DNA of 48,103 nucleotides from the NCBI GenBank assembly GCA_028875655.1, contig JAPPCX010000105.1, positions 1 through 48,103 of the forward strand. The letters are read 5' to 3'. Both the position numbers and the translations under genes were made by a program. The stretch's first letter is position 1, and each line of letters begins with the position of its first letter. The stretch is from Chloroflexota bacterium. Lineage in GTDB: Bacteria > Chloroflexota > Dehalococcoidia > Lucifugimonadales > UBA3495. Of this stretch, positions 41,220 to 42,812 are shown piece by piece. The notes under the pieces were generated by a model, which saw only the letters and a program-made list of their open reading frames with translations, ran no database searches and was not told where the DNA came from.

Positions 41220-41227
41220 CATGGGAC

Positions 41228-41255
41228 TGGATTCCCGCGAAAGCGGGAATGACGG
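41228..41255. repeat. Dispersed palindromic repeat, copy 5
   Basis: TGGATTCCCGC, GAAA, GCGGGAATGACGG, inverted relative to copies 2 and 3. Confidence 0.85.
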
Positions 41256-41363
41256 TGGAGGGCGGGGATAATGACAGTGGAAGGCGGGGGGATGATGACG
41301 GGGTTGAAAACCGAGAGTGCCCGACGGGACTGGGCGAGCGTTGGCGGTAAGCGGGCAGTGACG

Positions 41364-41397
41364 AAAGGGCCGCTGCCCGTGGAACAGGCAGCGGCCC
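41364..41397 (-). terminator. Intrinsic-like terminator of the SelW-like gene
   Basis: On the minus strand GGGCCGCTGCC and GGCAGCGGCCC form an 11-bp stem over nine bases, followed by TTTC, 25 bp after the stop. Confidence 0.8.
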
Positions 41398-41421: not shown

Positions 41422-41709
41422 CTAGTTGTCGGCGGCGACGGCCAAGTCGGCGCTGGCAATCTTGGCGGAGATGACTTCCTTCATCTTACGGACGCGAGAG
41501 AGGTCCGGGTAGATGTTGCCTTCGGCCTTCTTGTCAAAGATTTTCTCGCCGTCCAGGAACACTTCCATGATGCCCTGGCCGCGGGGAGAGATGGTAATGG
41601 CAGCGTCTGCGCCGTAGGCGCGGAAAAATTCGTTCGCCATCCACGTGGCGGTAGCGTGGTGCTGTCAAGGCACGCAGTAGGTGATCTCGAGTTGGACCTT
41701 TCCTTCCAT
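41422..41709 (-). CDS. SelW/Rdx-like selenoprotein with CxxU motif (TGA read as selenocysteine)
   Basis: The 95-residue thioredoxin-fold protein begins MEGKVQLEITYCVPU. Cys12 and an in-frame TGA (41665-41667, residue 15) occupy the CxxC/CxxU position of the Rdx/SelW family. After the TGA the family similarity continues without break: WMANEFFRAYGADAAI, GQGIMEVFLDGEKIFDKK, YPDLSRVRKMKEVI. ATG 41709 has GGAG five bases upstream; a start after the TGA (ATG 41640) would lose the redox motif and first strand. A hairpin fitting a bacterial SECIS element lies just after the TGA. The SelW family takes part in redox regulation. Selenocysteine use also needs selA, selB and selC, which are not in this window. 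Confidence 0.8.
41635..41664 (-). promoter_or_regulatory. Putative bacterial SECIS element
   Basis: On the minus strand, 14 bases after the TGA, CGCCA and TGGCG form a stem (41646-41650 with 41635-41639) with loop CGTGGA. The loop has G in its second position and starts 19 bases after the TGA, which matches the general bacterial SECIS model. Confidence 0.55.
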
Positions 41710-41884
41710 GATGTCTCCTCTTGATAGGGGATTTTGGCGGTTGCCTTTGCGCATTTTATCACAAAGTGGCGCGTTTTCCAACCGCACCGCAACGCGCGCG
41801 CACCCGCTTTGCAGACGCATGCGTGTCGGCGCTTGCTGGATTACGTCCTTTGGGGTTCGTTCTTCGACGGGCTGAGGACGATGG

Positions 41885-42116: not shown

Positions 42117-42374
42117 GTCTTCTCGTCCCCCACGCGGGCCCGAACGGTCCCGGTGATCAGTGTGGCCACCGCCGGTGAGGTATTAAACGGACGTGTTGCC
42201 ACCTGAATCGTTTGCGATTTTGAACTGACGGGGTTGGCCGTCGATGCGAAGAAACTGCCTCTCTATGGATGGTGATGAAACGTACGTTTTGCCTAGACAT
42301 GATTAGGATATACGTTCGGTTGGGTGGTTGTCAAGGGGGTGTCGGAAGCAGGGTTTGCGGGATTTGGGGATTTA

Positions 42375-42404
42375 CTGGATTCCCGCCTGCGCGGGAATGA
42401 CGGG
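42375..42404. repeat. Dispersed palindromic repeat, copy 6
   Basis: CTGGATTCCCGC, CTGC, GCGGGAATGACGGG, followed by a partial second GCGGGAATGACGGG at 42410-42423. Confidence 0.8.
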
Positions 42405-42501
42405 TAGGGGCGGGAATGACGGGTTGCGTGGGGCACGAGATCGCCGCGTCGCTACGCTCCTCGCGATGACAAACTGGGTACGCGTGAGGACGGGGGGTGT
42501 G

Positions 42502-42536: not shown

Positions 42537-42812
42537 GGTGATTCGCTGTGATGGGGAGTAGTAGGCGGAGTAAGGTCGCGTAGAGAGCCGACGGTCGGTG
42601 AAAGTCGGTGGACGGAACCGTTGAACTCGCCCCGGAGCGTCTTGGCTGAGATTTCGTTCCACGTAGAGCGGTACGTAGGCCGGGCGGGTCGGCCCCGATA
42701 AAGGCTGTGTACAGAGAGTTTCGAGCTGAGGCTCCGCCGCTGCGGGGCAGGCGCGGAAAAGAAGGGTGGTACCGCGGGAACCAAACCCGTCCCTTCGGGG
42801 TCGGGGCTTTTT
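42537..42812 (+). promoter_or_regulatory. T-box riboswitch leader, leucine specifier CTC
   Basis: The leader has the invariant T-box core GGGTGGTACCGCGG (42764-42777), an upstream stem I region with AGAGAG and GGTGAAAG motifs, and a GAACTCGCC specifier segment. The likely specifier codon CTC lies at 42626-42628. The TGGT in the T-box bulge would pair with the ACCA end of uncharged tRNA-Leu. A terminator follows at 42786-42812. When uncharged tRNA-Leu binds, the antiterminator forms and the branched-chain operon downstream is transcribed. The T-box call is firm; the specifier is read by eye. Confidence 0.9.
42786..42812 (+). terminator. T-box-controlled intrinsic terminator
   Basis: CCCGTCCC, TTCG, GGGTCGGG with one internal mismatch, then GCTTTTT. 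It overlaps the 3' side of the T-box antiterminator region. Confidence 0.88.

Follow-up and report, generated by a model that had tools for sequence, protein, structure and literature searches.

A SelW-like (Rdx family) gene of a Chloroflexota bacterium with an in-frame TGA codon very probably read as selenocysteine

The gene and its reading frame

The window analysed here, a stretch of 48,103 nucleotides covering contig JAPPCX010000105.1 of a Chloroflexota bacterium, contains a 95-codon frame with a single in-frame TGA, and the question raised by the locus is whether this codon ends a short product or is read as selenocysteine (Sec, U) in a longer one. Translated with TGA as Sec, the minus-strand frame has its ATG at 41709–41707, the TGA at 41667–41665 (in the context ITYCVP-U) and a TAG at 41424–41422. 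The read-through product has 95 residues and reads MEGKVQLEITYCVPUQHHATATWMANEFFRAYG...AADN. The gene and its flanking elements are as follows.

41422–41709, minus strand: SelW-like/Rdx gene of a probable selenoprotein, 95 codons plus TAG, with an ATG start at 41709 (translation with TGA as Sec and a Pfam Rdx match)
41665–41667, minus strand: in-frame TGA, the probable Sec codon for U15 of the CVPU motif (sequence and homologue codons)
41716–41721, minus strand: Shine–Dalgarno-like GAGGAG, 6 nt upstream of the ATG (read from the sequence)
41753–41781, minus strand: promoter-like TTGGAA-17-TAAAAT (consensus scan only, 9/12)
41367–41397, minus strand: 14-bp inverted repeat, a possible terminator, 24 nt past the stop codon (repeat search); the terminator scan did not call it as a terminator

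The original prediction had placed a SelW/Rdx-like gene at 41422–41709. The interval proved to be exact, from the ATG at 41709 to the TAG ending at 41422; the strand had been left unstated and is minus; translation of the plus strand of the interval gives no Rdx-related protein. The split at the TGA that had been foreseen for an ordinary annotation is indeed found in the conventional ORF list, which cuts the gene into 41901–41665 (ending ...ITYCVP) and 41640–41422 (starting from an internal ATG). The read-through frame corrects gene calls that would truncate or omit the Rdx protein.

The family assignment had also been anticipated, and it holds. The read-through protein matches Pfam Rdx (PF10262) with an E-value of 1.6e-13 and 51.0 bits, against a cut-off of 22.6. 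Its score for NCBIfam TIGR02174 (CXXU_selWTH) is 32.9–33.1 bits, slightly under the curated cut-off of 34.2, and all 31 of the aligned relatives match this model at E ≤ 0.001. An AlphaFold2 model built from 31 relatives has a mean pLDDT of 90.5, and the predicted fold is of the SelW type and thioredoxin-like: each of the best 22 PDB matches of the model is an Rdx/SelW protein, mouse SelW among them, and thioredoxins come next. A sequence search of the PDB agrees with the structure search in returning Rdx/SelW-related matches. The PF10262 structures with PDB codes 2fa8, 2p0g, 2obk and 2npb (mouse SelW) share both the fold of the model and sequence similarity, with TM-scores for the best structures of 0.72–0.76 (by query length); the sequence identity is ∼26–28% for the best bacterial matches and 19% for mouse SelW. 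In the model the first strand (residues 5–12) leads into the redox motif C12-V-P-U15, which precedes a helix (residues 18–35). We infer that CVPU would act there as a redox pair, and the product is probably a small thioredoxin-like thiol/selenol oxidoreductase.

Conservation of the TGA site and the Sec machinery

The closest named records (best 98% identity) are metagenome-assembled genomes of Dehalococcoidia and of the SAR202 cluster. We compared 76 homologues ranging from 98% to 23% identity, with the window gene counted among them. The codon at the U15 site is TGA in 74 of the 76, a count that takes in close relatives and is thus not one of independent events, and TGC or TGT in the two others, which are distant. 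More distant Rdx proteins of the same class have Cys in the same alignment column, so that the TGA occupies the second redox position of a CxxC/CxxU motif, as originally proposed. The alignment with Cys-containing and Sec-containing Rdx proteins that had been suggested as a check therefore gives a TGA or Cys codon at this site in every homologue (76/76), and not the random residues that had been named as an outcome contrary to the prediction. Over the 60 codons downstream of the TGA, dN/dS is 0.01–0.16. In one orthologue (L102) the match is interrupted between residues 44 and 64, perhaps by a frameshift or an assembly fault. A search for a phage homologue found none.

These comparisons bear on the plainest alternative, in which translation really ends at the TGA, as a genuine stop or a nonsense mutation, and the locus is a decaying pseudogene or two small ORFs with a restart at the internal ATG at 41640. 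The plain ORF list does give two such pieces, the second with an ATG of its own, but the homologues overwhelmingly keep the TGA, and the codon comparisons indicate strong purifying selection on the protein both before and after it. Restart at 41640 would, moreover, give a product in which strand 1 of the predicted fold and the redox motif are missing. We consider this alternative very unlikely.

In bacteria, Sec is delivered to a UGA by SelB, which carries GTP and Sec-tRNA(Sec) and binds the apical part of an mRNA hairpin. The assembly (3.45 Mb in 123 contigs, 96.9% complete) was searched for this machinery. SelA (552.9 bits), SelB (361.5 bits) and SelD (377.7 bits) were all found, as was a tRNA-Sec with anticodon TCA, on which the Rfam model and ARAGORN agree. 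The original prediction had inferred that the organism decodes UGA as Sec, had asked for a search for selA, selB, selC and selD, and would have been given up had selB and tRNA-Sec been absent; with all of these components present, the inference is supported. The selD gene itself (locus L023, G000:C89:5347-6270) has an in-frame TGA in CAGU, and SelD is therefore also a predicted selenoprotein.

Among 60 sampled relatives, 53 have an Rdx match and 55 have selA, which suggests that selenium use via SelW-like proteins is general in this mostly uncultured group of Chloroflexota. selA is present in 50 of the 53 genomes that have an Rdx match; the three lacking it are 67, 71 and 81% complete. This co-occurrence is a soft test, because nearly all of the relatives have selA.

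The downstream hairpin and the decoding of UGA 15

The remaining element is a hairpin in the mRNA downstream of the TGA.

41635–41650, minus strand: candidate bSECIS hairpin CGCCA-CGTGGA-TGGCG (rule scan, homologue consensus fold, frozen synonymous sites and a pair change)

Published bSECIS criteria ask for a loop of 3–9 nt with a G in the first two places, 16–37 nt from the UGA, and a minimum free energy of ≤ −7.5 kcal/mol (PMC13188914). The stem of the candidate begins 14 nt after the TGA and its 6-nt loop, CGTGGA with G at position 2, after 19 nt; the loop length, the placement of the G and the distance all fit this geometry. The energy is −5.9 kcal/mol for the hairpin alone and −7.4 kcal/mol in context, short of the limit in PMC13188914.

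By shape and energy alone this hairpin is ordinary, and such evidence is weak. Under a relaxed bSECIS rule, 843 of the 1222 TGA trinucleotides in the window are followed by some such hairpin, and 181 of the 1222 (15%) by one at least as stable as the candidate; we therefore rejected the hairpin as stand-alone evidence because it is nonspecific. The z-score of the single sequence against shuffled controls is −0.52, i.e. it folds no better than the shuffles, and its minimum-energy fold is a competing structure with a CAC loop. Thus, of the claim that a SECIS-like hairpin lies 19 bases after the TGA, the loop start and the G-containing loop stand, whereas a stability above chance does not.

It is by its conservation that the hairpin rises above chance. 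Consensus folding of 25 and of 29 relatives gives the CGTGGA-loop hairpin in both cases; the longer CAC-loop fold is lost in several relatives, with 93.1% of cells paired compared with 99.4% for the CGTGGA-loop hairpin, and was discarded. Across 41 distinct orthologues, the ratio of observed to expected synonymous diversity is 0.92 upstream of the TGA, drops to 0.07 at codons +5 to +10 (from only three informative codons), returns to 0.90 at codons +13 to +30 and is 0.70 further downstream. The trough, at 7% of the expected variation, coincides exactly with the hairpin. In four of 32 sequences the closing pair is U-A in place of C-G, the substitutions being synonymous ones at third codon positions; this compensation is limited to one stem pair, the three other pairs being invariant in the 32 sequences. 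More distant Rdx genes have a shifted hairpin, GGCC-TGGAT-GGCC, with its loop at 21 nt.

From the gene, its family, the conservation of TGA or Cys at the site, the Sec machinery encoded in the assembly and the constraint on the hairpin, all of which were computed, we assign a probability of about 0.96 to 41422–41709 being a functional SelW-like (Rdx family) gene with UGA 15 read as Sec. As we picture it, SelB loaded with Sec-tRNA(Sec) would bind the hairpin just downstream of the UGA, and the ribosome would for this reason decode UGA 15 as selenocysteine.

Two other ways of reading through the codon can be weighed against Sec insertion. Near-cognate read-through could place Cys at UGA 15, and homologues with Cys at the site do exist, but nothing points specifically to Cys insertion, and the full Sec pathway and the constrained hairpin are present; we regard it as extremely unlikely. 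A code variant in which UGA specifies a different amino acid (Trp or Gly) throughout the genome would likewise have the in-frame TGA read through, but its probability is negligible: the neighbouring ilvC ORF in the window terminates in TGA and the tRNA-Trp of the window has anticodon CCA, so that a general use of UGA for Trp finds no support, and in addition the residue aligned at the site is Cys rather than Trp or Gly, and the genome has a tRNA-Sec.

Related genes, known systems and neighbourhood

SelW-like CxxU selenoproteins are already a known and common bacterial kind, and the present gene adds no new mechanism. They were described as the most abundant selenoprotein family in the Sargasso Sea and GOS surveys (PMC1088965, PMC2398784), and those proteins share with this one the CxxU motif, a TGA-encoded Sec, a downstream bacterial SECIS and a small Rdx protein. 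The host differs: it is here a Dehalococcoidia/SAR202-type Chloroflexota, and Chloroflexi are not named in the main text of either paper. A literature search covering open-licence papers found none linking SAR202 with selenoproteins. The function of SelW-like proteins has been called unclear, with CXXU suggesting a redox role (PMC1088965); they are present in several bacterial genomes, with few Cys forms in Sec-using organisms (PMC1794560).

The same genome has a second TGA-bearing Rdx gene (L002, G000:C12:20879-21100). It resembles the window gene in having CVPU with TGA and the same hairpin core, CGCCACGTGGCTGGCG, but is a 42% identical paralogue in which U is followed by GY rather than QH. 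At another locus (L131), an Rdx gene with Cys (CMPC) neighbours a second that has TGA (CVPU).

An Rdx gene at L036:1498-1722 (G017:C38:6415-6636) has two in-frame TGAs and, at G017:C38:6418-6627, reads MQVKITYUQQUNYKPRAV..., that is, UxxU; its nearest homologues (L105–L110) are CxxU. By eye, it has a hairpin CCGTC-AGTTT-GGCGG with the loop ∼21 nt after the second TGA and ∼30 nt after the first. At the threshold used, UxxU was found in no other of 50 family genomes, i.e. in L036 only, and because it is known from a single species a TGC-to-TGA error or mutation is possible. That SelW-like proteins in this Chloroflexota family are nearly always Sec forms, mostly with 2–5 TGA copies per genome, and that L036 is a UxxU form with one hairpin, is a tentative picture that we think rather unlikely as a whole; if true, L036 would represent a SelW with two Sec residues, a form new to the family.

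A conserved operon with dnaG–rpoD was considered and rejected: the adjacency is confined to a small number of the nearest loci and most orthologues do not have it, so we claim no functional link. A T-box leader (RF00230, 96.5 bits against a gathering threshold of 93) lies at 42539–42797 on the plus strand, ∼63 nt upstream of an ilvB–ilvN–ilvC–leuA gene run. A 44-nt direct repeat with copies that are 80% identical, at 41226–41269 and 42374–42417, flanks the Rdx gene and contains the palindromic ATTCCCGC...GCGGGAAT.
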